Below, piece after piece: positions 21,282-53,759 of a stretch of 53,869 nt of DNA (the first letter of the stretch is position 1; the number at the start of each line of letters is the position of its first letter). Origin of the DNA: Nitrosomonas sp. (GTDB lineage Bacteria; Pseudomonadota; Gammaproteobacteria; Burkholderiales; Nitrosomonadaceae). Where the stretch lies: assembly GCA_017984435.1 (NCBI GenBank), contig JAGNZK010000014.1, forward strand, positions 1 to 53,869, read 5' to 3'. Made by a program: the position numbers and the translations under genes. The notes beneath the pieces were generated by a model that had not been told where the DNA came from, made no database searches, and saw only the letters and a program-made list of their open reading frames with translations.

Positions 21282-22265
21282 GTGACATCACCAACTTTCT
21301 CTTTACTGACCCCCGATTGCGTCATGAATGCACTGGACAGCCTGGGCTACCACAGCGATGGTCGTCTGTTAGCACTTAATAGCTATGAGAACCGCGTTTA
21401 TCAAGTAGGCATGGAAGAAAGCGCGCCGCTGGTAGCAAAGTTTTATCGGCCGGGGCGCTGGACGAATGAAGCTATCCTTGAAGAACACGCTTTCGTGCAG
21501 GAATTGGTCGAGCGCGAAATTCCCGTGGTACCTGCGTTGGTGTTGGATGGAAAAACACTGCACACCTTCGAAGGATTTCGCTTCGCCGTTTTTCCCAGAC
21601 ACGGTGGGCGTGCGCCTGAATTTGAAGATCGCAACACACTGGAATGGATGGGGCGTTTTCTAGGGCGCATTCACGCCATTGGCGCACTCAAGCCGTTTCA
21701 GCACCGCCCCACACTGAACATCGCGAGCTTTGGTGTGGAACCGCTTGATTTCTTGCTGACAAATAATTTCATCCCGACCGATCTTGAGGCCGCCTATCGT
21801 AGCGTAGCAGAGCAGGCACTAGTGAGTGTACGACATTGCTTTGAACGTGCCGGCAACAATATAAAAGCACTACGTTTGCATGGGGATTGCCATGCGGGCA
21901 ACGTGCTGTGGACGGATGATGGTCCGCACTTCGTCGATTTTGACGATAGCCGCATGGGTCCTGCGGTGCAGGATTTGTGGATGTTATTGTCGGGTGAACG
22001 TACCGATAGGGTACGGCAATTGAATGACGTGTTGGCAGGCTATGAAGATTTTTACGATTTTGATTTGCGTGAGTTGCATCTGGTCGAGGCACTGCGCACC
22101 TTGCGCCTGATTCATTATGCCGCCTGGCTGGCACAGCGATGGGACGATCCTGCCTTCAAGCAAGCTTTCCCTTGGTTTAATACGCAAAGCTATTGGCAAG
22201 ATCGTATTCTGGAATTGCGCGAGCAAATCGCGCTGATGGACGAGCCGCCGCTATGGTCGGCTTGA
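21282..22265 (+). CDS. srkA: Stress response kinase A (YihE/SrkA), Ser/Thr kinase
   Basis: SrkA is a cytoplasmic protein kinase-like enzyme that counteracts MazEF- and stress-triggered death in E. coli. The 327-residue protein has the N-terminal pattern LNSYENRVYQVGMEE, the nucleotide-binding Lys in LVAKFYRPGRW, the catalytic loop LHGDCHAGNVLW (near residue 200) and the metal-binding DFDDSRMGPAVQDLW. The frame has no ATG near its beginning; the GTG at 21282 gives the best start, without a strong ribosome-binding site. Length agrees with E. coli YihE (328). Confidence 0.93.
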   Translation: MTSPTFSLLTPDCVMNALDSLGYHSDGRLLALNSYENRVYQVGMEESAPLVAKFYRPGRWTNEAILEEHAFVQELVEREIPVVPALVLDGKTLHTFEGFRFAVFPRHGGRAPEFEDRNTLEWMGRFLGRIHAIGALKPFQHRPTLNIASFGVEPLDFLLTNNFIPTDLEAAYRSVAEQALVSVRHCFERAGNNIKALRLHGDCHAGNVLWTDDGPHFVDFDDSRMGPAVQDLWMLLSGERTDRVRQLNDVLAGYEDFYDFDLRELHLVEALRTLRLIHYAAWLAQRWDDPAFKQAFPWFNTQSYWQDRILELREQIALMDEPPLWSA

Positions 22266-34674: not shown

Positions 34675-35897
34675 GCAATTGGGAGATAAAACCAATCAAG
34701 AGTATTGGGAGAGTAGTTACAGGAAAGACTCCCCCGACTGACAATCCAGAGTATTTCGGCGGAAATGAATTATTTGTGTCTCCCAAAGATCTCGACTGGA
34801 ACAGTCACTATATAACTGAAACAGAAACACGCATTACTTCAAAGGCGCTGGAGAAGTTTAAGAATCAGGTAATACCAAGAAACACGGTGATGTTCACAAG
34901 TTTGAGTTTTGCTTTCGGAAAAATGGGCATTGCAAGCAAGCCGTGCTTAACGAATCAGCAAATTAACTCGGTCATCGTTAATAAAGAAAACAGCTCAAAG
35001 TTTGTTTATTACCTTCTTCGAGCCTATGAACCAATCATTTTTTCTTACAACTCTGGAATAGATACTCCGATTGTTCCCAAATCTGTCTTTGAGAAGATTG
35101 AAGTCAAGATACCATCCAAGAAGCTTCAAGAAAAAATCGCTGCTATTCTATCCACGTATGATGAGCTGATCGAAAACAACCGGCGGCGCATCGTGCTGCT
35201 GGAAAAGATGGCCGAGGAAATCTACCGCGAATGGTTTGTGCGCCTGCGCTTTCCCGGTCACGAGAAGGTGAAGAAGGTCAAAGGTGTACCGGAAGGATGG
35301 CGGTCATCGTGTTTAGGAAATGTTGCTAAATTCACGATGGGTCAAAGTCCAAGTTCAGAGTTCTACAATGAAGTCGGCGACGGGTTACCTTTCCATCAAG
35401 GTGTCGGCACTTATGGGATGCGATTTCCTCGAATTGTCACCTATTGCAGCGAAGATGGCCGACGCGCCCAGAAAGGCGACATTCTTTTTAGTGTGCGCGC
35501 TCCGGTGGGGCGTTTGAATATTGCAGATCGGGAGATGATTATCGGGCGTGGTCTTGCTGCCGTCAGGCACAAGAAAGAGCATAACTCCTACATGTACTAT
35601 CTGCTCAAATCGGCCTTTAAGGATGAAGATATTATTGGCAATGGTTCAATCTTCAATTCGGTTGGTAAGGATGAATTGGCCAAGTTTCCCATTTTCGAAC
35701 CGGAACCAAATCTTGTTGAGAAATTCGACACTATGATTGCCAAAATGGACGAGCAAATCATGATGATTATGCAGGCAACTGAGTGTTTGAAATCAAGCCG
35801 TGACTTGCTTCTCCCCCGCCTCATCTCCGGTAAACTTTCCGTCGAGCATCTCGACATCCAGTTCCCGCCCGGCATGGAGGAATCGGCCTGTGTTTGA
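34671..35897 (+). CDS. hsdS: Type I restriction-modification specificity subunit HsdS
   Basis: HsdS sets the bipartite DNA target of the type I enzyme. The 408-residue protein has two target-recognition domains. The first covers about residues 1-155 and ends in the coiled-coil spacer KKLQEKIAAILSTYDELIENN. The second covers about residues 205-370 and ends in a second coiled coil, IMMIMQATECLKSSRDLLLPRLISGKL. The last residues are KLSVEHLDIQFPPG and a short tail. It is coupled to hsdM by a 4-bp overlap. A near copy of its extreme 3' end is found 0.9 kb downstream. Confidence 0.93.
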   Translation: MSNWEIKPIKSIGRVVTGKTPPTDNPEYFGGNELFVSPKDLDWNSHYITETETRITSKALEKFKNQVIPRNTVMFTSLSFAFGKMGIASKPCLTNQQINSVIVNKENSSKFVYYLLRAYEPIIFSYNSGIDTPIVPKSVFEKIEVKIPSKKLQEKIAAILSTYDELIENNRRRIVLLEKMAEEIYREWFVRLRFPGHEKVKKVKGVPEGWRSSCLGNVAKFTMGQSPSSEFYNEVGDGLPFHQGVGTYGMRFPRIVTYCSEDGRRAQKGDILFSVRAPVGRLNIADREMIIGRGLAAVRHKKEHNSYMYYLLKSAFKDEDIIGNGSIFNSVGKDELAKFPIFEPEPNLVEKFDTMIAKMDEQIMMIMQATECLKSSRDLLLPRLISGKLSVEHLDIQFPPGMEESACV

Positions 35898-35928
35898 TTG
35901 CATCACCAAACGCGACCGCAAACCGCCC

Positions 35929-35995
35929 GTCATTTCGACAGCATGGAGAAATCCTGTATTGCGGCTCGGATTCCTCACTGGCGTTCGGAATGACA
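35929..35995 (-). repeat. Palindromic repeat unit R4 (inverted orientation)
   Basis: GTCATTTCGA at 35929 and TTCGGAATGACA ending near 35995 are the family's arms in reverse orientation, with GAGAAATC and GATTCCTC between them. It lies 31 bp after the hsdS stop and before vapC. Confidence 0.85.
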
Positions 35996-36054
35996 AGCGT
36001 GCCAGCCGGAATGGCAGGGCACAAGAATGGCATGAAAACGTTGTTGCGATGGGC

Positions 36055-36477
36055 TTACAGCGCCCAAGGGTTGAATACTTGCGGGTACAGTGTGAAGTCC
36101 TGCACGTTGCGGGTAACCACGGTGAGGCCGTGGCATTGGGCGGTGGCGATGAGCAGGCCGTCCATCACCGGCAAGGATTGTCCGGACAGTTCGGCACGTG
36201 CAGAAATTTGCGCCCAGACATGCAGCGCGGCGGTATCGAGCGGCAGGATGCGCCCCGCGAAACGCTGCTCCACCTTGCCCAGCCAGGCTGTGAGCTTCTG
36301 GCTGCGGCGCGGATCGGATGCGCGCAATTTGAGGATGCCTTTCTCGATTTCCCCCAGACTGATGACGCTGATGAACAGGCTGGATTCATCCTGCTCGTCC
36401 AGCCAGCGGATGACTGCCGGCGCAGGGGTTTTCCGGACATATTCGGACAGTGCGCAGGTGTCCAGCAGCCAGCTCAT
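36055..36477 (-). CDS. vapC: PIN-domain toxin, VapC/FitB-like
   Basis: The 140-residue protein is a PIN-domain ribonuclease. Acidic active-site residues are visible in MSWLLDTCALSEY (Asp6), SVISLGEIEKGI (Glu), MDGLLIATAQ (Asp) and the closing TRNVQDF. The wording is closest to the FitB/VapC group, which cuts RNA, often tRNA, when free of its antitoxin. It overlaps the antitoxin gene by 4 bp, the standard arrangement. The pair lies between hsdS and hsdR, where it could stabilise the island. Confidence 0.92.
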   Translation of the reverse strand: MSWLLDTCALSEYVRKTPAPAVIRWLDEQDESSLFISVISLGEIEKGILKLRASDPRRSQKLTAWLGKVEQRFAGRILPLDTAALHVWAQISARAELSGQSLPVMDGLLIATAQCHGLTVVTRNVQDFTLYPQVFNPWAL

Positions 36478-36728
36478 AGCGCGATGGCGCGTCCGGTGTC
36501 ACCGCTGCGGGAAATATCCAGATCATCCGCAGCAGCGAGACCGGGTTGCAGCAGCGCGTCGGAGAGCTTGCCTTCACGGCGCGTGAGGCGGGCGTATTCC
36601 TGCGCCGACACCACCACCGCCGCCGGTTTGCCGTGCACGGTGACCGTTTGGGCATTGCCACTGGCTGCTTGTTTGATCAGTTGGCTGAAATTGCTTTTCG
36701 CTTCTTGCAATTGCCATTCTTTATGCAT
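36474..36728 (-). CDS. vapB: Phd/YefM-type antitoxin
   Basis: The 84-residue protein starts MHKEWQLQEAKSNFSQLIKQ, the DNA-binding fold of Phd/YefM antitoxins. It continues with the family phrase TVTVHGKPAAVVVSAQEY and ends in a flexible, acidic toxin-binding tail. I chose the ATG at 36728 because GGAGGG lies directly before it; four codons of extension upstream are possible. It precedes and overlaps the PIN toxin and probably represses the shared promoter. Confidence 0.9.
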   Translation of the reverse strand: MHKEWQLQEAKSNFSQLIKQAASGNAQTVTVHGKPAAVVVSAQEYARLTRREGKLSDALLQPGLAAADDLDISRSGDTGRAIAL

Positions 36729-36804
36729 GATACCCTCCAATTATTCTGGTCAGACTGGGCAGAATTTAACACAAAGCGGATGGATTGGCTATGTTCCATT
36801 TTCA

Positions 36805-36990
36805 GTAAACTTTCCATCGAGCAAATCGACATTTAGGGAAATTGAATAATGCAATTTGCCATTTCGAACGCAGTGAGGAAGCTTTAATAGTCAATGCAAT
36901 AGATTTCTCGCTGTTGCTCGAAATGACACTTGTTCAGGGTTTCTTCTCTCCGGGCATGGCGAAAGAGATCAGTGCCTTCATTACAGAAGG
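36805..36990 (+). pseudogene. Relic of a second hsdS 3' end, split by a palindromic repeat
   Basis: AAACTTTCCATCGAGCAAAT followed by CGACATTTAG at 36805-36835 differs from the hsdS 3' end (KLSVEHLDI) at only a few positions and reads KLSIEQIDI. After an intervening repeat unit, FFSPGMAKEI is encoded near 36940-36970, which resembles the FPPGMEES end of hsdS. So an older hsdS tail seems to have been cut by the repeat. The assignment rests on short similarities. Confidence 0.45.
36857..36928 (+). repeat. Palindromic repeat unit R5
   Basis: The unit runs from CATTTCGAACGCAGTGAGGA to GCTCGAAATGACA with AGATTTCTCG in between, the same plan as the copies in hsdM. It lies within the relic hsdS tail. 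Confidence 0.8.
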
Positions 36991-37006
36991 CGACTATGGA
37001 TCACCT

Positions 37007-37125
37007 GTCATTTCGACAGAATGGAGAAATCTTATGGTTAAGATTCCTCACTTGCGTTCGGAATGACAGTATAAGGACGGAATGACATTATGGAGACGGA
37101 ATGATAGTGTGGGAGCGGAATGACA
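37007..37125 (-). repeat. Palindromic repeat unit R6 with iterated end arms
   Basis: A full inverted unit occupies 37007-37068. Its terminal CGGAATGACA is then repeated three more times, at about 37078, 37097 and 37116, with a period of 18-20 bp and small changes. The array ends 38 bp before the GIY-YIG gene. Confidence 0.8.
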
Positions 37126-37162
37126 GGTTTGCCGACTGTGCATGAAATGAGGGGTGAAGCTG

Positions 37163-37453
37163 ATGGAAAAGACCTATTATGTTTACCTGTTGACCAACTG
37201 GAATAATCAGGTGATGTATGTTGGTGTTACCAATGATCTTGAGCGACGGATCTATGAGCACAAAAATAAGCTGGTTGATGGGTTTACCAAAAAATATAAC
37301 GTTGAGAAGCTGGTTTACTTCGAGACTGCAAGCGATGTGCTGGCAGCTATTGAACGGGAAAAACAGATCAAAAAATGGCGGCGCGAGAAGAAGAATCAAC
37401 TGGCCATTGAAATGAATCCTGAATGGAAGGATTTGAGTTTGGAGTGGGAGTAG
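37163..37453 (+). CDS. Small GIY-YIG nuclease-domain protein flanked by palindromic repeats
   Basis: The 96-residue protein consists of a single GIY-YIG domain. YYVYLLTN gives the first motif, MYVGVTNDLERRIYEHK the second motif and catalytic Arg, and a Glu lies in AAIEREKQIKKWRREKK. It has no partner domain, so it is a stand-alone family member of the UPF0213/YhbQ type. The ATG at 37163 has GAGGGG before it; a GTG three codons upstream is the alternative. Palindromic repeats lie on both sides (37007-37125 and 37548-37611), inside a type I restriction locus. Related small GIY-YIG proteins have been reported to act on single-stranded DNA at repeats near their own gene; whether this one does is inference. 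Confidence 0.88.
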   Translation: MEKTYYVYLLTNWNNQVMYVGVTNDLERRIYEHKNKLVDGFTKKYNVEKLVYFETASDVLAAIEREKQIKKWRREKKNQLAIEMNPEWKDLSLEWE

Positions 37454-37547
37454 GGCCTCTTCTGGAATCTATTCCGGGTGAAATCGAGGGAAACAAAATG
37501 ACAGGCTTTGGTTAGAAATGATGTGCTATCAAAGCGAAGTAAAAGCT

Positions 37548-37611
37548 GTCATTCCGAACGGATGTGAGGAATCTATGCACTACAAGATTTCTCCCGATGG
37601 TCGAAATGACA
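37548..37611 (+). repeat. Palindromic repeat unit R8
   Basis: A full unit from GTCATTCCGAACG to GTCGAAATGACA with GAGGAATCT and AGATTTCTCCC inside lies between the GIY-YIG gene and hsdR. A decayed partial unit ending in AATGACAGG lies just before it, at about 37459-37505. Confidence 0.85.
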
Positions 37612-37736
37612 GGTGGGGACGAGCTTACGTGTTTGATCGTTACTTAAGCTTGTTCACTAGTTAAGGGAAATCTATTTCCCTTAACTTAGACGACGATTAA
37701 GTTAAAGCAAAATAATAAATCCGAATAGAAAACTGA

Positions 37737-40700
37737 ATGCCTAACTTTATTTCCGAAGATCAGATCGAGCAAGCGTTGGTGCAGAAACTCCAGCATCTGC
37801 ACGGCTTCGACGTGCTCGATTGCCATACGAACAATGCGGAGGATTTGAACGATGGTTCAAACCGCACCAGCAAACGCGATGTGATCTTGCTGGACCGGCT
37901 GCGCGAGGCGGCACTCCGTCTGAACCCGGATATTCCGCGAGAAGCCATCGAAAGTGCTTTGGAAAAGCTGTGTGAACGGCGGCAGGCAATGACGCTGATT
38001 GCCGCAAACCAGGAAATCTACGGCCTATTGCGCGACGGTATTGCGGTGACGTTCGACGATGCGCAGGGACAGTCTCAGCAGGAGCGCATGCGCTTGCTGG
38101 ATTTTAACGTGCCGGGCAATAACCGCTTTCTGGCCGTGACGCAACTGTGGATCAAGGGCGAGCGCGGTTTTCGCCGCCCGGATGTGTTGTTGTACGTGAA
38201 CGGTATTCCGCTGGTGTTCATCGAACTGAAAAATTCGAATGTGAAGCTACGCAACGCTTATGACGACAATCTGACGAATTACAAGGCGGAGATTCCGCAG
38301 CTTTTCCTGACCAATGCGTTTTGCGTGCTGTCGAACGCCGTCGAAACCAGAGTCGGCAGCATCACGGCGCAGTGGGAGCATTATTTCAACTGGCTGCGCG
38401 CTGATGACGAGAAGCAAAAAATTGACCGTGTGGCAATCCGCGCGCAAGGCACCAGCCTGGAAGGAGTCATCGAGGGTTTGCTGCCGCAGCAAAAGTTGCT
38501 GGATTACGTGGAAAATTTCGTTCTCTATTACAAAGACACGCAGAAAATCATCGCGCAGAACCACCAGTTTATCGGTGTGAATCGCGCGTATGACGTTTTC
38601 CTCCAACGTGAGGAATTGGCGGGCAAGCTCGGGGTGTTCTGGCATACGCAAGGATCGGGCAAGAGTTTTTCGATGATTTTTTATGCGCGCAAAATTTTCC
38701 GCAAGCAGACCGGCAATTTCACTTTCGTCGTGGTGACCGACCGCGACGATCTGGATGGACAGATTTACCGTAATTTCCTCAACACCCGCACGGTGAGCGA
38801 GGCCGAGGCGGCGCAGCCGAAGAACAGCGAGGAGATGCGCAAATTCCTCGGGCAGAACAAACGCATCGTTTTCACGCTGATCCAGAAATTCCGCTGGGAC
38901 AAAGGCCGCGAATATCCCGAGCTTTCAGCGCGCAACGACATCATCGTGATTGTCGACGAGGCGCACCGCACGCAATACAAATCGCTGGCGGAGAACATGC
39001 GCAAGGGGCTGCCCAGGGCGAACTATCTGGCATTTACCGGCACGCCGCTGCTCGGGCGCGAACGCAAAACCAATGCGTGGTTTGGCGGTTATGTGTCGGA
39101 ATACAACTTTCAACAGTCGATGGATGATGGTGCGACGGTGCCGCTGTTTTACCAGAAACGCGTGCCAGAGGTGTTGATCCAGAACGAAGGATTGAGCGAG
39201 GAGTTTTACCAGATACTGGAAGATGAGAATCTGGATGAGGCGCAGCAGGCCAAGCTGGAGAAGCGTTTCTCCACGGAAATAGAAGTCATCAAACGCGACG
39301 ACCGGCTGGAAAAAATCGCGCGGGACATCGTTTATCACTTCCCCCAGCGCGGCTATCTCGGTAAAGGACTGGTGGTGTCGGTGGATAAATTCACCGCCGT
39401 GAAGATGTACGACAAGGTGCAGCGGCTGTGGAAGGAAGAGATAAGAAGCCTGAAAGGGATTATCAGCAAAACCGCCAGCGAAATTGAGAAGCGGCGTCTG
39501 GAGCAGCGCGTTGAATTCATGCGCGCTGTTGAGATGGCCGTGGTGATCAGCGCAGACGCGGGCGAGGAAGAAAAATTCGCCGCGCAGGGTTTGACCATTA
39601 AGCCGCATCGTGAACGCATGGATAAGCTGGATGAACATGGGCACGATATTGAATACAACTACAAAGACCTGGAGCATCCGCTGCAACTGGTGTTTGTCTG
39701 CGCCATGTGGCTGACCGGCTTTGATGCACCGACACTTTCCACGTTATATCTCGATAAACCGATGCAGGGCCATACGCTAATGCAAACCATCGCTCGCGCC
39801 AATCGCGTGACATCGTGGAAAATCAACGAGGTGGAGAAGCGTAACGGCGAAATCGTGGATTACTACAATGTATTCCGCAACATGAAGCTGGCGCTGAAAG
39901 ATTACGCGCAAGGCGGCGACGAGACCGAATCGCCGGTCAAGGAAAAAGCGGAACTGTTTCGTTTGCTGGACGATGCGATTGAACAAGGCTTTGCGTTTTG
40001 TCACGAGAAGGCGGTTGCGTTGCGCGAGGTGCTGGGCAGCGATGAGGTATTCAAGCAGGTCGGGCGATTTGAGTCGTTTGCCAATACCTTTCTGGCAAAC
40101 GACGAGTGGCGCAGGAGCTTCAACGTGTATGAAAACACCATCACGTCGCTGTATGAGGCGTGCAAGCCGGAGGTTCTAGGACGCGGCAAGGGGCGCGAGG
40201 TGGCAGCGTTTCAGTATCTGCGCGGCGTGATCGAAGCGCATGTCGAACAGAAGGACATCGATGCGATCAGCTTGAAGATCGCCGAGCTGCTGGATGAGAG
40301 TGTGGTGGTGGATGGCGCGGATGCGCTTAAAGCACAACAGAAAGATGCGCAATATCAGATTATTCAAAAGGGCAAAACCTGGGATTTGAGCAAAATCAAT
40401 TTCGACAAATTGCGCGAGGAATTCAAACAGGCGGCTTACAAACATATCGAGATCGCCGATCTGCGCGCTTTCTTGCAGCATAAATTGGAATTGATGCTGC
40501 AACAGAATGCAACGCGAACAGATTTTGCCCAGCGCTTGCAGCAGATTATTGACACTTACAACGCTGGCGGCTCATCGACCGAAAACTACTATGAAGATCT
40601 GATGCAATTCACCGAGGATTTGCGCGAGGAAGATGAGCGCCACATCCGTGAGGGTTTGAATGAAGATGAACTGGAACTGTTCGATTTGCTGAAGAAAGAC

Positions 40701-40964
40701 ATAATGACGCAAGAGGAAACGCAGAAAGTCCGGCTTGCAGCAAAGTCACTGCTGCACCGCCTTCTACAAGAACACCCCAAAGTATTGGTGCAGGATTGGT
40801 ATAAGGATACGCAAACTCAGAAAATGGTACGGTCTACGGTCGAGCAGGTATTGGATAGCAATTTACCGGAAAGCTATGATCGCGTGTTGTTCCGCGAAAA
40901 ATGTGACAATGTGTTTTATCTGATGCTGGAATATGCTAGCCATGGCAGGAAGTGGGCAGCTTAA
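37737..40964 (+). CDS. hsdR: Type I restriction endonuclease subunit HsdR
   Basis: HsdR translocates DNA with ATP and cuts it when translocation stalls. The 1075-residue protein has the N-terminal nuclease motif RRPDVLLYVNGIPLVFIELKN (about residues 146-166, PD...ExK). Helicase motif I is TQGSGKSFSM (near 303), VDEAHRTQY is motif II (near 406), and FTGTPLLG is motif III. The C-terminal helical domain binds HsdM. The reading frame is intact, so the R subunit seems functional. It lies 1.8 kb after hsdS because the toxin-antitoxin pair, the GIY-YIG gene and the repeats lie between. Confidence 0.95.
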   Translation: MPNFISEDQIEQALVQKLQHLHGFDVLDCHTNNAEDLNDGSNRTSKRDVILLDRLREAALRLNPDIPREAIESALEKLCERRQAMTLIAANQEIYGLLRDGIAVTFDDAQGQSQQERMRLLDFNVPGNNRFLAVTQLWIKGERGFRRPDVLLYVNGIPLVFIELKNSNVKLRNAYDDNLTNYKAEIPQLFLTNAFCVLSNAVETRVGSITAQWEHYFNWLRADDEKQKIDRVAIRAQGTSLEGVIEGLLPQQKLLDYVENFVLYYKDTQKIIAQNHQFIGVNRAYDVFLQREELAGKLGVFWHTQGSGKSFSMIFYARKIFRKQTGNFTFVVVTDRDDLDGQIYRNFLNTRTVSEAEAAQPKNSEEMRKFLGQNKRIVFTLIQKFRWDKGREYPELSARNDIIVIVDEAHRTQYKSLAENMRKGLPRANYLAFTGTPLLGRERKTNAWFGGYVSEYNFQQSMDDGATVPLFYQKRVPEVLIQNEGLSEEFYQILEDENLDEAQQAKLEKRFSTEIEVIKRDDRLEKIARDIVYHFPQRGYLGKGLVVSVDKFTAVKMYDKVQRLWKEEIRSLKGIISKTASEIEKRRLEQRVEFMRAVEMAVVISADAGEEEKFAAQGLTIKPHRERMDKLDEHGHDIEYNYKDLEHPLQLVFVCAMWLTGFDAPTLSTLYLDKPMQGHTLMQTIARANRVTSWKINEVEKRNGEIVDYYNVFRNMKLALKDYAQGGDETESPVKEKAELFRLLDDAIEQGFAFCHEKAVALREVLGSDEVFKQVGRFESFANTFLANDEWRRSFNVYENTITSLYEACKPEVLGRGKGREVAAFQYLRGVIEAHVEQKDIDAISLKIAELLDESVVVDGADALKAQQKDAQYQIIQKGKTWDLSKINFDKLREEFKQAAYKHIEIADLRAFLQHKLELMLQQNATRTDFAQRLQQIIDTYNAGGSSTENYYEDLMQFTEDLREEDERHIREGLNEDELELFDLLKKDIMTQEETQKVRLAAKSLLHRLLQEHPKVLVQDWYKDTQTQKMVRSTVEQVLDSNLPESYDRVLFREKCDNVFYLMLEYASHGRKWAA

Positions 40965-46487: not shown

Positions 46488-46795
46488 TGGTCTGGATCCG
46501 CTTAATTCGACAATACTTCTGATAGCTATAAATAGCTCCATAGAATAGCAGCATTCTGAATGAGCACGTTGCACGTCGTCGCAATTTCCTGCTCATCATT
46601 TGAGCCCTCCTGGCTCTCTTGGTTATTAGAGAACATGCAAAATCAAAGGAGACATACCTGTCCGAGGCCTATGGGGTTAATGGAACACTTTTTTGGAAAC
46701 ACCTATTTTCCATCATCGTCATAGACCGACGATTTCACCATCTTTGCGTGCCTCCTCCGGTTTTGCATGTTCTTACCTTCTCCCCGGGTATAAGC
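46488..46795. other. Intergenic region between ribA and the flavoprotein gene
   Basis: I see no convincing gene and no FMN-riboswitch core in these 308 bp. Short open frames here lack ribosome-binding sites and look random. The ribA promoter must lie here. Confidence 0.4.
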
Positions 46796-48187
46796 TTAAC
46801 GCCCAAAAGCATCAGCGAGAAGGGCATTTCTCCACGTCAAGCCCTGGCTATAAATTTCCTGAGAGATATGAGCCGCTTGATCCTTTGTGCTTGAGGGATC
46901 ACCAAGGAAGCCGCCACTTGCTACCCAGGAATCGTGCGCTTGATCCCACTGATACCCGGCATGTGCATAGATCCCTTTATGGGCGCTGGTGGACCGGATG
47001 GCATTGTACTGAACAGCGGAGATCACTAGAGAGGTTTCTGGTGCACGGCCGGCAATCTTACGGAGGATGGCGGCAGCGGCGATTTTGGCCTCGTCGACCG
47101 CGGCATGCCCGCTTTTGGGCACACTGGCGGGTGGGGTAGTCGGCAATGGCAAGAAAGCAGCGTCACCAATCACATAAACATGCGAATAGCCAGTAACCGT
47201 GGAGGCGAAGGTTTGGGCATTAACTGGGGCGAAAGACCCTCCTTCCAGTAAAGCTGGAGCGAAATCGAGGTTCGCTTTTTGCGGCGGAATCACATTGGCT
47301 GCGTGATAGGGGATATCGCCGTCTTTGGTCGACCCGAAGTTGATCGGTAGATTGGTATGTAGGATTTTGGACTTCAGACTCACCGAGTTTAAAGTCGCAC
47401 CAGGATAGTATTCGATAGTTCTACCGGTGTAGTAATTGTATTTATTGGGCGTTTGTTGTAAGTGACTTCCAAAACTTTGCAAAGCTGCAATAAAATCATT
47501 TTTTTGGGAAACAAAATCGGTATGGCCATCTACCACGATAACCTTGCAATTTCGGCTTTGTAAATAATCTGCAACAGCAAACGCTCGTCCATAAGGCGCC
47601 AGGGAACCCTTGTATGCACCTGATGGGATCGAAATCACAAAAGTCCCTTTGTTAGGAATATGATCCAAAGCATTTTTCAGATCCAGCGCTTTGCTGCCTT
47701 CCCAAAAGCTCAGTGAAAAATCGCGAGTCTCCCCAGGAATGGAATCCGGTACAGGTCCCATACCCGGCGATAGGATCACATAATCATATTGCGAGGGTGT
47801 ATGGAGTTTGGGTGGAACACTGAAAGAAACCAGAACTTGTGCTCCCTCCTGTTTAATGCCTGTTACTTTATTCTGCTGAACATTTATCCCGGAGCTAGCA
47901 AGGGTACTATAATCCCGAGTAATACTGCTGAGAGACTGTGCGCCGGTGATCACCAGATTGGATTGGATACAGGTACTATAGCTAGCATCTTTGGTAATTA
48001 GATATACGTCAACAGCGTTTCCGCCCCATAATTTTAAATATCGGGCGGCTGCTGCGCCGCCCATGCCGCCTCCCACCACCAGAATCTTTTTTGGACTGGC
48101 GCCTGCCAAAGCGGCATGGCTCAGGCCTGGTACCATCGCGACGACTGGTACGGCCGCCGCAAATTTAAAGAAATTACGTCTTTTCAT
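46796..48187 (-). CDS. Tat-exported FCSD-like flavoprotein lacking the redox-active disulfide
   Basis: The 463-residue protein resembles the flavoprotein subunit (FccB) of flavocytochrome c sulfide dehydrogenase. It has a twin-arginine signal (MKRRNFFKFAAA), the FAD motif ILVVGGGMGGAAAARYLK, and YSTCIQSNLVI, where Cys73 corresponds to the Cys that binds FAD covalently in FccB. The two Cys that form the redox-active disulfide in FccB are missing: the RCPPGPYERA region reads KGSLAPYGRA, and the WCPVD region reads SFAPVN. Only one other Cys (Cys214) exists. So sulfide oxidation by the known mechanism is unlikely. It is followed upstream on the same strand by a monohaem cytochrome c gene, like fccAB. 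Confidence 0.88.
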   Translation of the reverse strand: MKRRNFFKFAAAVPVVAMVPGLSHAALAGASPKKILVVGGGMGGAAAARYLKLWGGNAVDVYLITKDASYSTCIQSNLVITGAQSLSSITRDYSTLASSGINVQQNKVTGIKQEGAQVLVSFSVPPKLHTPSQYDYVILSPGMGPVPDSIPGETRDFSLSFWEGSKALDLKNALDHIPNKGTFVISIPSGAYKGSLAPYGRAFAVADYLQSRNCKVIVVDGHTDFVSQKNDFIAALQSFGSHLQQTPNKYNYYTGRTIEYYPGATLNSVSLKSKILHTNLPINFGSTKDGDIPYHAANVIPPQKANLDFAPALLEGGSFAPVNAQTFASTVTGYSHVYVIGDAAFLPLPTTPPASVPKSGHAAVDEAKIAAAAILRKIAGRAPETSLVISAVQYNAIRSTSAHKGIYAHAGYQWDQAHDSWVASGGFLGDPSSTKDQAAHISQEIYSQGLTWRNALLADAFGR

Positions 48188-48223
48188 GATTTTTCTCCTA
48201 CGATATTGTTAGCTTCAGATACC

Positions 48224-48550
48224 TCAATGGCTACCAGATTTCTTTCCGTGGGCCCTAAGATATTGGCTAATATCACTCAATTGCTGATCAGTGTAAGTCC
48301 TGGCTACCCAATCCATAATGGATTCGGGATTTGATCGATATTTCATCTCGATCAAATCTTGATAGTGATTCTCTCCTAAAAGATTTTCGAAACCTTCTGC
48401 CCGATTGGTGTCCGTACCATGACAGGCTGCGCAACTCTCAGCCAATGCGGCGCCGTCTTCGGGCGCAGCAGCATAGGTTTGAGGCACGACCGCAATCGCC
48501 AGTAATATGACCATTGCAAAAGTTTGTACGCGGAGTGATTCGTTCTTCAT
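48224..48550 (-). CDS. Periplasmic monohaem cytochrome c, FccA-like partner
   Basis: The 108-residue precursor has a signal peptide ending QTYAA and one haem motif CAACH at residues 40-44. Met residues in IEMKYRSNPESIMDW are candidates for the sixth ligand. I chose the ATG at 48550 because GGAG precedes it; the frame extends 11 codons upstream without support. It is the first gene of a two-gene unit with the flavoprotein, 36 bp apart, so they probably form a flavocytochrome-like pair in the periplasm. Confidence 0.92.
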   Translation of the reverse strand: MKNESLRVQTFAMVILLAIAVVPQTYAAAPEDGAALAESCAACHGTDTNRAEGFENLLGENHYQDLIEMKYRSNPESIMDWVARTYTDQQLSDISQYLRAHGKKSGSH

Positions 48551-48791
48551 AAGTATTCTCCAAGTTTGTTGTAGACTGGCCAAGTTTTACCATCATGGAA
48601 TCCAATCTTTCTGTTACCAAAACAGCTTACTTTGAAGATTGGCTCATTATGATCAAAGCTTCCAATCAGAAACTCTAACCCACTGATTTTTTGACCGTCA
48701 TACTGTCGTCAGAATCAACGGGGTCACATGTTCGCATCGTAACATCCACATTTTCCATCCCTCATTAATTAAAATATTAGGGATACATTTT

Positions 48792-48874
48792 CATGGGATT
48801 TTTTCCCATGACTCATTTTTAAAATACGTGTGAAAAAATCCCATGTCAAGCATTTCGTGTGATATTTCCCTGCA
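48792..48874. promoter_or_regulatory. Operator cluster 1: CATGGGA-N5-TCCCATG palindrome and two weaker sites
   Basis: A perfect 19-bp palindrome, CATGGGA-TTTTT-TCCCATG, lies at 48792-48810. It is followed by GTGTGA-N5-TCCCATG at 48828-48845 and GTGTGA-N4-TCCC at 48857-48870. The cluster lies about 240 bp upstream of the cytochrome/flavoprotein unit, within the 1.27-kb divergent region. The same design is repeated at 49271-49320. No known regulator is recognised. Confidence 0.6.
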
Positions 48875-49270
48875 TAATGCGAGCGTTAAATTCATATGCG
48901 AGATCTCTATATTTCAAGCTCTCTCTTGGTTTAGCCAAGAAAAAATGCCTTCAATATTCACTTTTAAAAATTTCATATTGCTATCACGAAAAACTACCAA
49001 GACTCAGTGTCGATAAGGTATTTTTCCCTGAGGTATAAAAATAATGAAATAGCTTGCCAATAGGTTAATTCTCACAAACTTGGCGATCCAGCGCTAACAA
49101 TCCCAAGGAGAAACGCCATGACTTGCTCTAGCTTATGATTGCTCTCGACCTGATAACACGAATCGATTTATCCAGAAACTTACGATTCGCGCACTCAGTG
49201 AAGCGGTTCTCGAGAATCAATGATTGATTTGAGAATAATAAATAAGGGAAATTGTTGCACCAGTTGTTGA

Positions 49271-49320
49271 CATGGGAAAATTTCCCATGTAATGTAAAAA
49301 TATGTGGGAATTAATCACAC
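49271..49320. promoter_or_regulatory. Operator cluster 2: second CATGGGA-N5-TCCCATG palindrome with a weaker site
   Basis: A perfect 19-bp palindrome CATGGGA-AAATT-TCCCATG occupies 49271-49289, and a related imperfect site (GTGGGA-N5-TCACAC, within 49302-49320) follows 15 bp later. The cluster lies 70-115 bp in front of the small ORF at 49388, a natural place for an operator. Confidence 0.6.
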
Positions 49321-49387
49321 GCTTATGTGTATAACAGCTTACTAATGTCACTTTCACTCAAATTAACTCAAATCATGGAGAAATAGC

Positions 49388-49513
49388 ATGAAAAAGCTAT
49401 CAACCAACGTTGCTTCAAATTTAAGCACTGTCTTTCGATCGACTTCAACCTTTAGCCGGCAAGAAGTTGTCAAGTCCACTGGATTACTGATGAGCATGTT
49501 GAGCCTGTTTTAA
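49388..49513 (+). CDS. Small ORF of 41 codons upstream of the decahaem cytochrome gene
   Basis: An ATG at 49388 with GGAGAAATAGC before it opens a frame of 41 residues, MKKLSTNVASNLSTVFRSTS and so on, ending GLLMSMLSLF. The product is basic at the start, rich in Ser and Thr, and hydrophobic at its C terminus. I do not recognise it. It lies just after operator cluster 2 and 0.3 kb before the decahaem gene, on the same strand, so it may be co-regulated. It could be a leader peptide or a small membrane-interacting protein, or a chance frame. Confidence 0.45.
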   Translation: MKKLSTNVASNLSTVFRSTSTFSRQEVVKSTGLLMSMLSLF

Positions 49514-49617
49514 CATCACAAATCATTTTTCAGCAGTCTGCTAAAGCAAAATAAGAAGTAATAGAAGCGTTCTGTCATGCAGGGCGCATGGCGAATAAGC
49601 CAGCAAAATACTCAATT

Positions 49618-49800
49618 GTAAAAAATTGATTTCTTACGCCAATCAGCACCACAAGCCATTCAGCCGAACTGGATAGTCGCATTTTCAATTCACGCTGAAT
49701 CATTCAATCAGTAACCGATGTAAGAAATCCATTTCTTACATCCATCAGCATCACATCTTATTCGGCAGGACTGAATTGCCAGTTCATGCTGAATCAGTAG
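49618..49800 (+). repeat. Imperfect direct repeat with GTAAGAAAT dyads before the decahaem gene
   Basis: Two copies of about 90 bp, 102 bp apart, share a dyad and the following ATCAGCA(C/T)CAC and GCTGAATCA phrases. The second dyad is perfect, GTAAGAAAT-CC-ATTTCTTAC at 49720-49739, and the first (49618-49637) has one mismatch. The second copy ends just before the ribosome-binding site of the cytochrome gene. It could be a duplicated operator, or a pair of hairpins in the mRNA leader. Confidence 0.6.
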
Positions 49801-49817
49801 CAGATAAGGAGGGAATT

Positions 49818-50777
49818 ATGGAAATTTTTATGAGGAACACGCACATCTTTTTTTTACCGATGCTTGTAATATTTTTTGCGCTTAGCATCGGAATATTATC
49901 CCAAAATGTCATGGCGCAAGACGACGACGACGATGATGACGAAGCAACCGAAGATTTAGTGATACGAGGTGACAAGACATGCACAGGTTGCCATGATGAA
50001 GGCGCCGAATCTGTACTCGCTATCGGCAAAACAAAGCATGGAACGGTTGCGGATGAACGTACGCCCACTTGTACAAGCTGCCATGGCAAGAGTATTCGCC
50101 ACATGGACAGACCCGAGAAAGTCCCCATGCCATCACGCACGTTTGGTAAGAATTCAAAGAATCCCGTTGAAGATAGAAATAAAGCCTGTCTAAGCTGTCA
50201 CCAAGGCGGCAAACAAATGCATTGGGTCAGCAGTACCCATGCCAATCGTGATGTCGCCTGCACCTCCTGTCACCAGATACATACCGCACAAGACAAAGTA
50301 CGCGACCGCATCACGCAAACGGAAGTATGTTTTTCCTGTCATAAAGAACAACGTGCACAAATCAACCGCCCCTCCCGCCATCCTACCCGGGAAGGAAAAG
50401 TAATTTGCTCCGATTGCCATAATCCTCACGGCTCGGCGGGACCCAGCAGCATGGTGCGGGATAGCATTAACGACACTTGTTATACCTGCCATATGGAAAA
50501 ACGCGGCCCGTTCGTCCGCAACCACCCACCGGTTCAGGAAAATTGCGCGCTTTGCCACAATCCTCACGGTACGACAGCACCCAATCTACTGAAAGTTCGC
50601 TCGCCATTTCTTTGCCAAGAATGCCATGAACCCAATACGCATCAGGGCAGCCCGGGAACAATCGATGGTTCTTATCGAAGAAATCTCCTGGCCAGAGGTT
50701 GTGTCAATTGCCATACCCAGATTCATGGCAGCAATAACCCTGAAAATGTTCGTCTTGAAGATCTTCTGCAACGTTGA
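49818..50777 (+). CDS. Decahaem c-type cytochrome, DmsE/MtrA/PioA type
   Basis: The 319-residue precursor has ten CxxCH motifs: CTGCH, CTSCH, CLSCH, CTSCH, CFSCH, CSDCH, CYTCH, CALCH, CQECH and CVNCH. That is exactly the count of the MtrA/DmsE family. Its signal peptide (MEIFMRNTHIFFLPMLVIFFAL...MAQ) is followed by an Asp run (DDDDDDD) and then the haem domain. In known systems such a cytochrome inserts into an MtrB/PioB barrel and carries electrons across the outer membrane. The ATG at 49818 has AAGGAGGG before it. The barrel gene follows 12 bp downstream. No MtrC-type surface cytochrome gene is present. Confidence 0.95.
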   Translation: MEIFMRNTHIFFLPMLVIFFALSIGILSQNVMAQDDDDDDDEATEDLVIRGDKTCTGCHDEGAESVLAIGKTKHGTVADERTPTCTSCHGKSIRHMDRPEKVPMPSRTFGKNSKNPVEDRNKACLSCHQGGKQMHWVSSTHANRDVACTSCHQIHTAQDKVRDRITQTEVCFSCHKEQRAQINRPSRHPTREGKVICSDCHNPHGSAGPSSMVRDSINDTCYTCHMEKRGPFVRNHPPVQENCALCHNPHGTTAPNLLKVRSPFLCQECHEPNTHQGSPGTIDGSYRRNLLARGCVNCHTQIHGSNNPENVRLEDLLQR

Positions 50778-50789
50778 CCGGGAGTGAAA

Positions 50790-52880
50790 ATGAATAAATT
50801 AATCATAAAATCTCTTCAAATCGCATCTGTCTGTTCTTTCTTACTTATCGCTGAAACAGCCGTATCAACTGAAGATGACAATCTCAAACGACTAACCAAA
50901 CCGCAAAGCACGATCAATTTTGGTGCAGGTTACCTCTCGAATGATAATGCACGTTTTGGTCAATATAATGGCCTACGCAATGAAGGTCCGTATGGTCTTT
51001 TCAATGTTGACATCACCAAACGCGATGATAATACAGGCACTTGGCTTAGGCTGCTGGGACGCAATCTTGGATTACAGAATCGCGATATCCGCTTCGAGCA
51101 TAATAAGCAAGGTCACTGGAGCTATTTTATTGATTTCAGTCAAACGCCCAGATATGAGCCATTCACAGCCGTGACCGCCGTCACGGGCATTGGCAGTGCG
51201 CATTTGGATGTACCAACATCACCCACAGCCGGTGAACCTGCACAATTGAAAACCGAACGTGAAACGATATCATTCGGGATGAGTCGATATCTCCCAGGCA
51301 ATTTTGAATTACAGTTTCATTTCCGTAATGAAGAAAAAGATGGATCAAGAATTTTCGGGCGTGGTAATCGTTTGGGGCCACCACTTCCGGGCGTAGTCGG
51401 TGGTTATGAGTTTTTACCCGAACCCATTAATTATTCAACCCGGCAATTTGGCGGCACTCTCAACTATAACGGTAAGCAATTACAGGTATCCGGTGGATAT
51501 TTTGGAACCATGTTTGTCAATAAAAATACCGCCTTGCATACTACGGGCGGCAGCAGTGTCGGTGGAATCTATGCGCCGAGTCAATTCTCTCCGATTGCCT
51601 TACCTCCGGATAATCAGTCGCATCAGCTATTTCTATCAGCTGGCTATAGTTTTAATCCGACGACTCATGGCACATTCAAAGCGGCTTATACACATGCCAC
51701 GCAGACAGATAGCTTCTTTGCGACGCAATTGTTGGCCCCTGGTGTCGGAAACAATTTGGGTGGGCGTATTAATACCACATTAGTGCAAGGCGGGGTTACC
51801 AGTCGTCCGTTACCCAAATTATCGGTATTGGCGAATGTTCGATTTGAAGATCGCGACGATAATACCCCCGTTCTTCTATACAATCCATTGGCACGGCAGC
51901 CGGATCTCAACGGAAATAGCTGGAGTGGACTCAATCATCCGCGTTCGTTCAGTACGCTGACGAGCAGAGTTGAAGCCAATTACACGTTACCGATGAATTT
52001 TCGTTTGATCGGCGGTATTGATTATGAACATTGGGATCGTCGCTGGCAGCCCACTTTTGTCGGTCATCGCACCAAAACGGATGAAATTTCCTATCGGGCG
52101 GAGATACGACGTAATTTGGCGGATACCCTGACAGGATCGATTGCCTATATACACAGCGATCGATTTGGATCGCCTTTTATCTCTACGGCGACCGCAACCG
52201 GTGATTACTTTAACTTGATTGCCCCCATCAATCTTTCCGACCGCACTCGGGATAAAGTGCGTTTATCGCTTAACTGGGAGCCTATTGAACCATTGTCACT
52301 GCAAGTGATGATCGATGAATCATTCGATAATTATGGGCATCGTAGCGGCTCTAATCTTGGACTACGTAATGGTTCCGCAAGAAACTATTCATTGGATGCG
52401 GCATATACATTCTCTGAGAACTTGCAAGTGGTCGGATGGTTCTCACGTAATGAAACTCACATTGATCAAGCTTCAAGAAACTGGAGTCCTGCTGATGGTT
52501 CCCGTGAAATTTGGTCTGCTAATCTGCAGAATATTGGCACTTCATTCGGCGCTGATATCAATGGAAAACCCACTGAGAAAATAGAAGTCGGTGCCAGTCT
52601 ATCGCAATCTTTTATCACGGATAAGTTTAACCAAAAAACGAGTGATCCGGAGACTTATGCAGTGCCCAATATCTCAACGGAACTCAGCAATATGAGATTA
52701 TTTGCGAGATACGCCCTGCGCAAAAACTTAAGTTTGCATCTGGATTACATCCTTAATCGGTTTAAAACCAACGAATGGACATGGGACCATTGGGCCTATA
52801 CGGATGGTTCACGATTGACACAGGATATCGATCAGATCATCAATTTTATTGGTCTTTCCGGACATCTCACTTGGCAATAA
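50790..52880 (+). CDS. MtrB/PioB-family decahaem-associated outer-membrane barrel
   Basis: The 696-residue precursor is a large outer-membrane beta-barrel of the MtrB/PioB family (DUF3374-like), which sheathes a decahaem cytochrome. After a signal peptide ending near AVSTEDD the protein shows many amphipathic strands with aromatic girdles (for example YSFNPTTHGTFKAAYTHATQ and LTGSIAYIHSDRFG). It ends in FIGLSGHLTWQ. The CxxC motif found near the N terminus of Shewanella MtrB is absent, as in PioB-like members. GGGAG lies 5 bases before the ATG at 50790; a GTG two codons earlier is possible. It is the second gene of the decahaem operon. Confidence 0.93.
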   Translation: MNKLIIKSLQIASVCSFLLIAETAVSTEDDNLKRLTKPQSTINFGAGYLSNDNARFGQYNGLRNEGPYGLFNVDITKRDDNTGTWLRLLGRNLGLQNRDIRFEHNKQGHWSYFIDFSQTPRYEPFTAVTAVTGIGSAHLDVPTSPTAGEPAQLKTERETISFGMSRYLPGNFELQFHFRNEEKDGSRIFGRGNRLGPPLPGVVGGYEFLPEPINYSTRQFGGTLNYNGKQLQVSGGYFGTMFVNKNTALHTTGGSSVGGIYAPSQFSPIALPPDNQSHQLFLSAGYSFNPTTHGTFKAAYTHATQTDSFFATQLLAPGVGNNLGGRINTTLVQGGVTSRPLPKLSVLANVRFEDRDDNTPVLLYNPLARQPDLNGNSWSGLNHPRSFSTLTSRVEANYTLPMNFRLIGGIDYEHWDRRWQPTFVGHRTKTDEISYRAEIRRNLADTLTGSIAYIHSDRFGSPFISTATATGDYFNLIAPINLSDRTRDKVRLSLNWEPIEPLSLQVMIDESFDNYGHRSGSNLGLRNGSARNYSLDAAYTFSENLQVVGWFSRNETHIDQASRNWSPADGSREIWSANLQNIGTSFGADINGKPTEKIEVGASLSQSFITDKFNQKTSDPETYAVPNISTELSNMRLFARYALRKNLSLHLDYILNRFKTNEWTWDHWAYTDGSRLTQDIDQIINFIGLSGHLTWQ

Positions 52881-53129
52881 TCAGTGTTGCAAGTTTCTCG
52901 TTTGCTTTTCCGTTCTAACAATATCACGAACATATTGGCAAGCTTGCTCGCGGCATCCAGCAGAAGTGGCACCGCGTTGCACCACCACTTTGTCCCGTTT
53001 GATGATTTTTTTAAACGACTCATGGGTTGCTTCCAGATGAACATTGCCGTGCCGCCACTAAGCGAATTGCCAGCAGCAGCATATCAAGATGATATCAATT
53101 CTGAAGTTGTGATTACTTATTTCGATGCA

Positions 53130-53759
53130 TTATAAAATAAGCTTCGGTAAAGATATGAGAAGCTCGCCAAACAAGAGTTGTAAGAAACTAGCAGATTTCC
53201 ACAAGCTAAATGGTTTTGGGGGAAATGATGGTATAGAGGCTGAAGTTGATTGTCGTCTGACCTGAGGATGATATTTTTCATCTAAAAACTGCAAATCTTT
53301 CATCAATTGCTGGCTCAATTCAACTTCTTTGCGATTATACGTGCCATAACTGATCATGCCATTATTGAGATCGTCGAGGTTACTCTGTTTTGAATGGAGA
53401 TGATCCTTGAAACGTTCTCCGTGTTCGGTACTAATAAAAGAAGTGATGGTTTTACTATACATATTCTGGCAGAACGCAACGATTTGATGCAGTTTCTCGA
53501 TTTCCGGCCTTTCCTTTTCCTGAACAAAATTCTCGTCAGATTGCATTGCTATGGTGGGTTCGCTTAGTCCGGATGCCCAGAAAATTTTGCTTTGAGTATT
53601 CGAGAGTTTTGACATCTCGATGCTTTTTCTGCATTGAAGCGTATTTTCTTCCAAGGCTTGCTTGAAAGCGGTTTTTTGTGAGTCCTGTTGTTGCGCAATA
53701 TTATGCGCGCAACCCATTAGAAAGAAGAGTATCGAGATTAATACTATTGATCCGGCCAT
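53130..53759 (-). CDS. Predicted lipoprotein of unknown function
   Basis: The 209-residue protein starts with a short signal, MAGSIVLISILFFLMGC, with a lipobox placing the acylated Cys at residue 17. The mature part is mainly helical and polar, with segments such as KQALEENTLQCRKSIEMSKL and YNRKEVELSQQLMKDLQFLD. It ends in a Pro/Ser-rich stretch and a hydrophobic tail (LQLLFGELLISLPKLIL). I do not recognise the family. It begins 9 bp after the stop of the gene at the window edge and may be co-transcribed with it. Confidence 0.65.
   Translation of the reverse strand: MAGSIVLISILFFLMGCAHNIAQQQDSQKTAFKQALEENTLQCRKSIEMSKLSNTQSKIFWASGLSEPTIAMQSDENFVQEKERPEIEKLHQIVAFCQNMYSKTITSFISTEHGERFKDHLHSKQSNLDDLNNGMISYGTYNRKEVELSQQLMKDLQFLDEKYHPQVRRQSTSASIPSFPPKPFSLWKSASFLQLLFGELLISLPKLIL

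Follow-up and report, generated by a model that had tools for sequence, protein, structure and literature searches.

Do a porin-cytochrome conduit and a flavocytochrome that stand back to back in a Nitrosomonas genome form a single electron-transfer system, or two systems under common control? The question is raised by an island at positions 46796–52880 of the stretch analyzed here (referred to in its entirety as the window), which spans 54 kb at 47% G+C and corresponds to contig C81 in a genome of 2.8 Mb (G000, 92% complete). The island holds two divergent two-gene units, one encoding a decahaem c-type cytochrome and an outer-membrane beta-barrel, the other a monohaem c-type cytochrome and a flavoprotein related to flavocytochrome c sulfide dehydrogenase (FCSD). 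An initial annotation had proposed that the four genes form one system. The analysis described here favors, with a probability that we put at roughly 0.57, two separately inherited electron-transfer modules that belong to one regulon. Three observations go beyond that annotation: the flavoprotein has lost two cysteines, the two halves are separable, and both are preceded by a common promoter-operator.

All four open reading frames (ORFs) lie where they had been placed previously, and ORFs, CXXCH counts and family matches agree on the following divergent layout.

46796–48187, minus strand: FCSD-like flavoprotein of 463 aa, with the Tat-type leader MKRRNFFK, Cys73 present, and G194 and Q393 at the redox positions
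48224–48550, minus strand: monohaem c-type cytochrome of 108 aa from ATG 48550, in an ORF open from 48583, with one CXXCH
49818–50777, plus strand: decahaem c-type cytochrome of the MtrA/DmsE family, 319 aa from ATG 49818, in an ORF open from 49776, with ten CXXCH
50790–52880, plus strand: MtrB/PioB outer-membrane beta-barrel from ATG 50790, with GTG 50784 as a possible alternative

CXXCH motifs number exactly ten in the decahaem cytochrome and one in the cytochrome c, and are absent from both flavoprotein and barrel. The starts of the decahaem cytochrome (ATG 49818), the barrel (ATG 50790) and the cytochrome c (ATG 48550) were chosen by ribosome sites, and because they were re-chosen in this manner the divergent gap, 48551–49817, measures 1267 bp, in agreement with the shared control region of 1.27 kb described earlier.

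A promoter-operator common to both gene pairs

The two divergent promoters are connected by a 35-nt inverted repeat, and both contain the element TTGACA-TGGGAnnnnnTCCCACG-TAnnnT, in which a palindrome lies within the 17-bp spacer. The features of the gap are given below, the last three without a strand.

49267–49295, plus strand: promoter-operator to the decahaem cytochrome and barrel, TTGACA-TGGGAAAATTTCCCATG-TAATGT, with a 17-bp palindromic spacer
48821–48849, minus strand: promoter-operator to the cytochrome c and flavoprotein, TTGACA-TGGGATTTTTTCACACG-TATTTT, with a 17-bp palindromic spacer
48792–48810: third operator-like palindrome, CATGGGATTTTTTCCCATG, which adjoins the flavocytochrome promoter
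49719–49740: second, different palindrome, TGTAAGAAATCCATTTCTTACA, some 80–100 nt 5' of the decahaem start
49617–49776: imperfect 58-nt direct repeat in the conduit leader, with copies at 49617–49674 and 49719–49776 that are 74% alike

The sequence TTGACATGKGANNNNNTCMCA is present in the window in exactly two copies, one per promoter, while 100 shuffles gave a mean of 0.02 copies at up to one mismatch and none reached two; the shared motifs on which the one-system proposal had drawn are therefore real and above chance. A palindrome within the 17-bp spacer of a sigma-70-like promoter would suit a dimeric repressor. In the mechanism proposed here, a regulator, most likely the protein family DUF6502 (see below), would bind the TGGGAnnnnnTCCCA palindrome within the -35/-10 spacer of both divergent promoters, and on the most economical reading one signal would lift the repression of both modules at once.

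The element also stands 5' of the flavocytochrome pairs of genomes G062 and G067, and 5' of mtrAB of the window type in G062 and G038. Since the G067 flavoprotein (28–32% identical) retains the redox cysteines, flavocytochromes of both kinds bear the element. Three of the four flavocytochrome pairs seen in the genus (G000, G062 and G067) possess the operator with its -10 box, and in the fourth, that of G081, it is degenerate. At the mtrAB of G058 the palindrome is present, but with an altered -35 box, and the contig ends 33 nt away. In G085, similarity to G038 spans the operator and continues to about 15 nt into mtrA, where it breaks off, the mtrA body being located on another short contig; the break can be read as an insertion, although this is unproven by the assembly. 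The operator and first mtrA nucleotides of G085 are followed by unrelated DNA with a MauG-type di-haem gene (L186 4001–5851).

The operator was not found at the second mtrAB of the own genome (contig C67). Scanning of the 18 other mtrAB loci reached about 0.4–0.5 kb beyond the decahaem start, and because of this short upstream reach an absence there is weaker than that at the C67 copy. The core of TGTAAGAAATCCATTTCTTACA was encountered in G062 (twice), G038, G046, G058 and G085, in the last case 5' of the broken-off mtrA start, and in G046 it occurs without the first operator. A 41-codon ORF with a ribosome site lies 3' of the conduit promoter (49388–49513), and its second half is not kept in the G062 alignment.

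Recurrence of the operator in Nitrosomonas and its association with DUF6502

With up to one mismatch, the operator was detected at 78 sites in 47 of the 86 genomes of the genus, as against 7 sites for the reversed pattern. The contexts of 73 of these sites were examined, those left out being G028:C105, G065:C43, G067:C1:1428591, G082:C1:1233314 and G084:C1:2338231, and seven sites with no visible -10 box (L098, L099, L104, L119, L120, L157 and L170) were set aside before bases were counted. TAnnnT, whose positions were not part of the query, stands at the exact 17-bp spacing in all 66 remaining sites, a result that is favored by the setting aside and becomes 66 of 73 when the seven are included.

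A gene of the DUF6502 family (PF20112) is divergent from the target of the operator at 24 of the 66 sites, and at 22 of these a gene from the DUF5666 cluster (PF18914) comes next to it. DUF6502 is encoded in 50 of the 86 genomes, the own copy being located at G000:C18:26430-27212. It is present in all 21 genomes that carry the exact operator (base rate 50/86, Fisher 1.4e-6) and in 40 of the 47 with a site at up to one mismatch (Fisher 2.1e-8), both tests ignoring phylogeny; among the seven operator genomes that lack it, six have a set-aside site as their sole site, and the seventh is G060. Of 399 genomes searched in the order, 388 belong to other genera; an extended pattern was matched in 3 of these 388 and the reversed pattern in none. 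One of the three sites lies in the promoter of a DUF6502-DUF5666 pair from another family (PF20112 36.1 bits, PF18914 59.4 bits), one between an oxidoreductase of the flavin adenine dinucleotide (FAD)-ferredoxin type and a membrane protein, and one at no clear gene. No other observation speaks as strongly for DUF6502 reading the element as the first of these, an independent match. With it, the pair accompanies the operator at 22 Nitrosomonas sites and at one in another family, and the location of the operator on the promoter of the pair suggests autoregulation.

These associations suggest that the conduit and the flavocytochrome are probably expressed together, in a single regulon under DUF6502. 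Further genes preceded by the element encode, among others, a beta-propeller protein, a hydrolase of the GH114 family, a LuxR-type response regulator and an FAD/cyclic nucleotide/ferredoxin oxidoreductase. The beta-propeller protein, which in the own genome is found on contig C18 (L096 5963–7798), displays by eye a cupredoxin-like N-terminus, and matches weakly the lactonase-type nitrous-oxide reductase L-NosZ (30.5 bits, cut-off 700).

A number of observations weigh against this picture. Non-redox genes such as GH114 are members of the regulon, so that common control does not necessarily imply a common flow of electrons. The element of G081 has three mismatches to a 25-letter pattern and CACCCT at the -10 position, and no operator was detected in the stretches scanned 5' of mtrAB in G046, G044 and G036. 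The figures for the genus are uncorrected for phylogeny, 10 of the 50 genomes with DUF6502 lack a site at up to one mismatch, and G060 has two consensus-type sites and no DUF6502 match. Finally, DUF6502 gave no helix-turn-helix match in Pfam (E <=10), and a profile of 19 DUF6502 proteins compared with PDB sequences at E <=10 yielded no match and no solved relative. The lack of a helix-turn-helix match and the sites of G060, together with the presence of a LuxR-type response regulator among the regulon genes, would also fit a palindrome that is read by another regulator, with DUF6502 being a mere frequent neighbor and regulon member. This alternative is nevertheless considered unlikely, given the 21-of-21 co-occurrence of DUF6502 with the exact operator and the operator on the DUF6502-DUF5666 pair beyond the genus. 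Pfam records no function for DUF6502, and no mention of it was found in the literature searched; the family occurs beyond Nitrosomonas, and a binding result would provide a function for a family that has none known.

Separate occurrence of the two modules

Decahaem cytochromes of the window type (78–100% identity) occur in eight genomes (G000, G062, G046, G038, G058, G044, G085 and G036). This cut is thin at its lower end, where G036 at 78% is followed by G034 at 76%; in the MtrB tree G034 forms the outermost row within the supported group to which the window belongs, and counting it in would give nine window-type genomes, seven of them without the flavoprotein. The flavoprotein of the window type was found in three of the 86 genomes of the genus (92–100% identity), other relatives seen being FCSD-type and at most 38% identical. 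Two counts speak against tying the halves to one another: six of the eight genomes with window-type mtrAB are without the flavoprotein, which indicates that their partnership is not obligate, and one of the three flavoprotein genomes, that of N. supralitoralis (G081), is without the conduit. The latter genome possesses flavoprotein and cytochrome and gave no decahaem or barrel match, an absence that is good but not final in an assembly of about 240 contigs. An obligate four-gene system was rejected on the basis of this independent occurrence.

DNA similarity, likewise, stops at the borders of the modules: it covers about 49718–52880 (the conduit) with G046 and G038, and is limited to the flavocytochrome, 46538–48866, with N. 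supralitoralis. Together with the independent occurrence of the halves, these separate blocks could be taken to mean that two unrelated redox units of the same broad regulon have been juxtaposed by insertion-sequence traffic and exchange no electrons, an idea with which an IS21-type IstB gene on the N. supralitoralis contig and the admission to the regulon of a beta-propeller protein, hydrolases and a response regulator would also be compatible. What argues in the opposite direction is the conservation in G062, which shares the island from 46795 to 52705 (its contig end) at 86–90% DNA identity and has kept the divergent layout and both operators, as well as the operator and -10 box of three of the four flavocytochrome pairs seen in the genus, with that of G081 degenerate. 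Juxtaposition without exchange is, on balance, a serious but lesser possibility. At locus L085, from 5984, similarity to the window ends at the flavoprotein stop codon, after which the sequence resembles, by eye, the start of an IS30-type transposase. No close plasmid-borne relative of the flavoprotein was identified, since the 56 plasmid records that match are all below 60% identity, and at most 31% among the matches listed; carriage on plasmids was set aside on these grounds.

For the one-system proposal the outcome is divided: independent occurrence of the halves in relatives, which the initial annotation had named as one half of its refutation, is observed, yet the halves share a promoter-embedded operator. 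Related expression of the two can be predicted because the operator is common to both halves, is also present before the conduit alone (G038 and G085), and is intact before a flavocytochrome alone (G067); for N. supralitoralis, the degenerate element without a -10 box argues against such a prediction. Within the preferred reading of two modules in one regulon, co-regulation of conduit and flavocytochrome is accordingly held to be somewhat better than an even bet, while a direct exchange of electrons between them is doubtful; the flavocytochrome may feed the conduit, draw on it or simply answer to a condition common to both. A still more ambitious scheme, in which DUF6502 would be an undescribed regulator family that binds a promoter-spacer palindrome and turns on, in Nitrosomonas, a surface-electron program in which a donor in the periplasm is oxidized by a flavocytochrome of non-sulfide chemistry and the electrons run through its cytochrome to an MtrC-less MtrAB, must be regarded as improbable. 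The operator predicts which genes respond together and, in conjunction with a candidate regulator, makes testable the question of how nitrifiers persist at low oxygen and whether they exchange electrons with surfaces.

Anatomy of the flavocytochrome and of the conduit

The flavoprotein had been termed FCSD-like, a description that holds for its ancestry and not for its catalytic center. Homology is clear from PF21706 FCSD_central (38 bits, cut-off 27) and from the structure 1fcd (E 6.3e-32), and the adjoining cytochrome c matches PF00034 (26 bits, cut-off 21.3) and has among its solved relatives the cytochrome chain 5n1t_B from a flavocytochrome c (E 1.6e-4). In FCSD, FAD is attached to a cysteine and a pair of cysteines is redox-active (PMC12010331, in excerpt). 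The window protein was aligned with 33 relatives (34 rows in total), comprising 29 of 30 loci from the 399 genomes of the order (the 30th being the window itself), the protein of G067, two close relatives, and a protein from a Bacteroidota metagenome-assembled genome (MAG). Both redox columns are cysteine in all 31 proteins outside the own group, although the aligned loci are the best-scoring of 162 matching genomes and a cysteine-less relative may stand lower in the ranking. In all three members of the own group, namely the window, MAG GRE_AOB_3 (G062) and N. supralitoralis APG5 (G081), these columns are glycine and glutamine, and the motif YRCPPGPYERAC around the redox cysteine is replaced by YKGSLAPYGRAF; the initial annotation had missed that both catalytic cysteines are gone. 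The FAD-linking Cys73 is kept within a YSTCIQSN motif, the corresponding cysteine being present in 31 of the 34 rows.

Judged by its sequence, the flavoprotein is not a sulfide dehydrogenase of known mechanism, since both redox cysteines are absent, and that reading was discarded on this basis. The pair resembles FccAB (1fcd, 3vrd, 5n1t) in its FCSD-type flavoprotein, FAD-linking cysteine and adjoining monohaem cytochrome gene, and differs from it in having neither redox-active cysteine. Ratios of nonsynonymous to synonymous substitution (dN/dS, Nei-Gojobori) are 0.077 against G062 and 0.078 against G081 for the flavoprotein, which is therefore maintained in its altered form by purifying selection, and 0.17 against G062 for the cytochrome c. 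That the flavocytochrome could still dehydrogenate sulfide by another route, or represent a decaying relict, might be suspected from its FCSD homology and its retention of the FAD cysteine and cytochrome partner; the replacement of the redox cysteines and their motif in all three members and a dN/dS near 0.08, which speaks against decay, render both options very improbable. The second module would then be a periplasmic flavocytochrome in which a Tat-exported flavoprotein, probably with FAD bound covalently to Cys73, passes electrons to the monohaem cytochrome. Because the FCSD disulfide is unavailable, it would employ a donor other than sulfide or a different chemistry, the lost cysteines having removed the obvious substrate mechanism.

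Family matches support the assignment of the decahaem cytochrome and barrel to an MtrAB-type porin-cytochrome conduit that has no adjoining MtrC gene. The cytochrome matches TIGR03508 with 281.7 bits (cut-off 192.2), the barrel matches PF11854 with 414.6 bits (cut-off 23) and TIGR03509 with 315.8 bits (cut-off 240.05), and 12 bp separate the decahaem stop from the barrel ATG 50790; the decahaem dN/dS against G062 is 0.026. As in MtrAB, MtoAB and PioAB, a decahaem cytochrome of the DmsE/MtrA family lies beside an MtrB/PioB barrel, and both display leader-like N-termini. The window differs in that no MtrC or PioC gene adjoins, in having a promoter whose spacer operator is found repeatedly across the genus, and in the divergence of the conduit from a flavocytochrome pair. 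The previous statement that MtrC is missing is borne out insofar as OmcA/MtrC (TIGR03507) is unmatched in the own genome and stays under the cut-off in all 86 genomes, five of which gave weak matches, in a search where no control genome scored over the cut-off either; an MtrC elsewhere in the own genome was discarded as a candidate on the same search. A PioC-type high-potential iron-sulfur protein, which requires four cysteines, was not found after the barrel, where only an 83-aa ORF with one cysteine (52884–53135) and a reverse-strand ORF (53130–53759) are present.

This first module would carry electrons across the outer membrane. The two genes with no adjoining MtrC recall PioAB and MtoAB (PMC10654088 and PMC8805035, in excerpt), and the conduit could on that account operate inward and draw electrons from Fe(II) or a cathode, the flavocytochrome then serving as periplasmic acceptor or donor. 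The nearest solved relative is, however, 6r2q, the MtrAB of the metal reducer Shewanella baltica (PMC10654088, in excerpt), with 235.8 bits and E 5.4e-69 for the cytochrome (6r2q_A, a chain labelled otherwise in the PDB listing) and 97.6 bits for the barrel (6r2q_B). In addition, electron transfer from N. communis to an anode has been reported, with a small current of 4.7 microamperes compared to 2.8 in an abiotic control (Gulay et al. 2023, PMC10415592, in excerpt). The direction of flow is not readable from sequence, and an inward conduit is viewed as rather unlikely. Extracellular electron donation or uptake by the island, suggested earlier for a probable ammonia oxidizer, may nonetheless be entertained; a search for AMO gave no match in the own genome, and none in the control genomes.

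The conduit is not new in kind. The excerpts of the N. communis study already describe Mtr homologues in Nitrosomonas, expression of multihaem cytochromes, and complete Mtr pathways, including an outer-membrane-anchored cytochrome, in some members (PMC10415592). The extracellular electron transfer machinery reported there shares its MtrA and MtrB homologues with the window; anchored cytochromes were counted in that work, whereas TIGR03507 gave nothing over the cut-off in the 86 genomes here, the methods being different, and no flavocytochrome or operator is described in the sections covered (PMC10415592). A pairing of conduit and flavocytochrome in Nitrosomonas was not encountered in the titles and abstract openings of the literature searched, which is not proof that none has been described.

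Within the genus, the barrel exceeds the cut-off in 22 of 86 genomes and the decahaem cytochrome is matched in 23, although the match in G005, 78 residues long at 38%, is not a conduit cytochrome. The two conduits of the own genome, on C81 and C67, are separated by the midpoint root in the MtrB tree (26 rows), from which L015 (G038 C13) and L022 (G036) are missing, their window-type assignment being derived from decahaem identities of 89% and 78%. On the strand of the C67 mtrAB, and 3' of it, a lipoprotein-like protein with two CXXCH motifs is encoded (L054 3973–5772), a relative of di-haem cytochrome c peroxidases and RoxA (NF040606 133.8 bits, cut-off 150; PF21419 67 bits, cut-off 26.7).

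Elsewhere in the window, a putative type I restriction-modification locus (hsdM, hsdS, hsdR) was read by eye at 32377–40964. A kinase-like gene, SrkA-type by eye, lies at 21282–22265, approximately 27 kb from the island, and an 88% identical relative of this gene directly adjoins mtrAB in G058 (L053 1706–2689).

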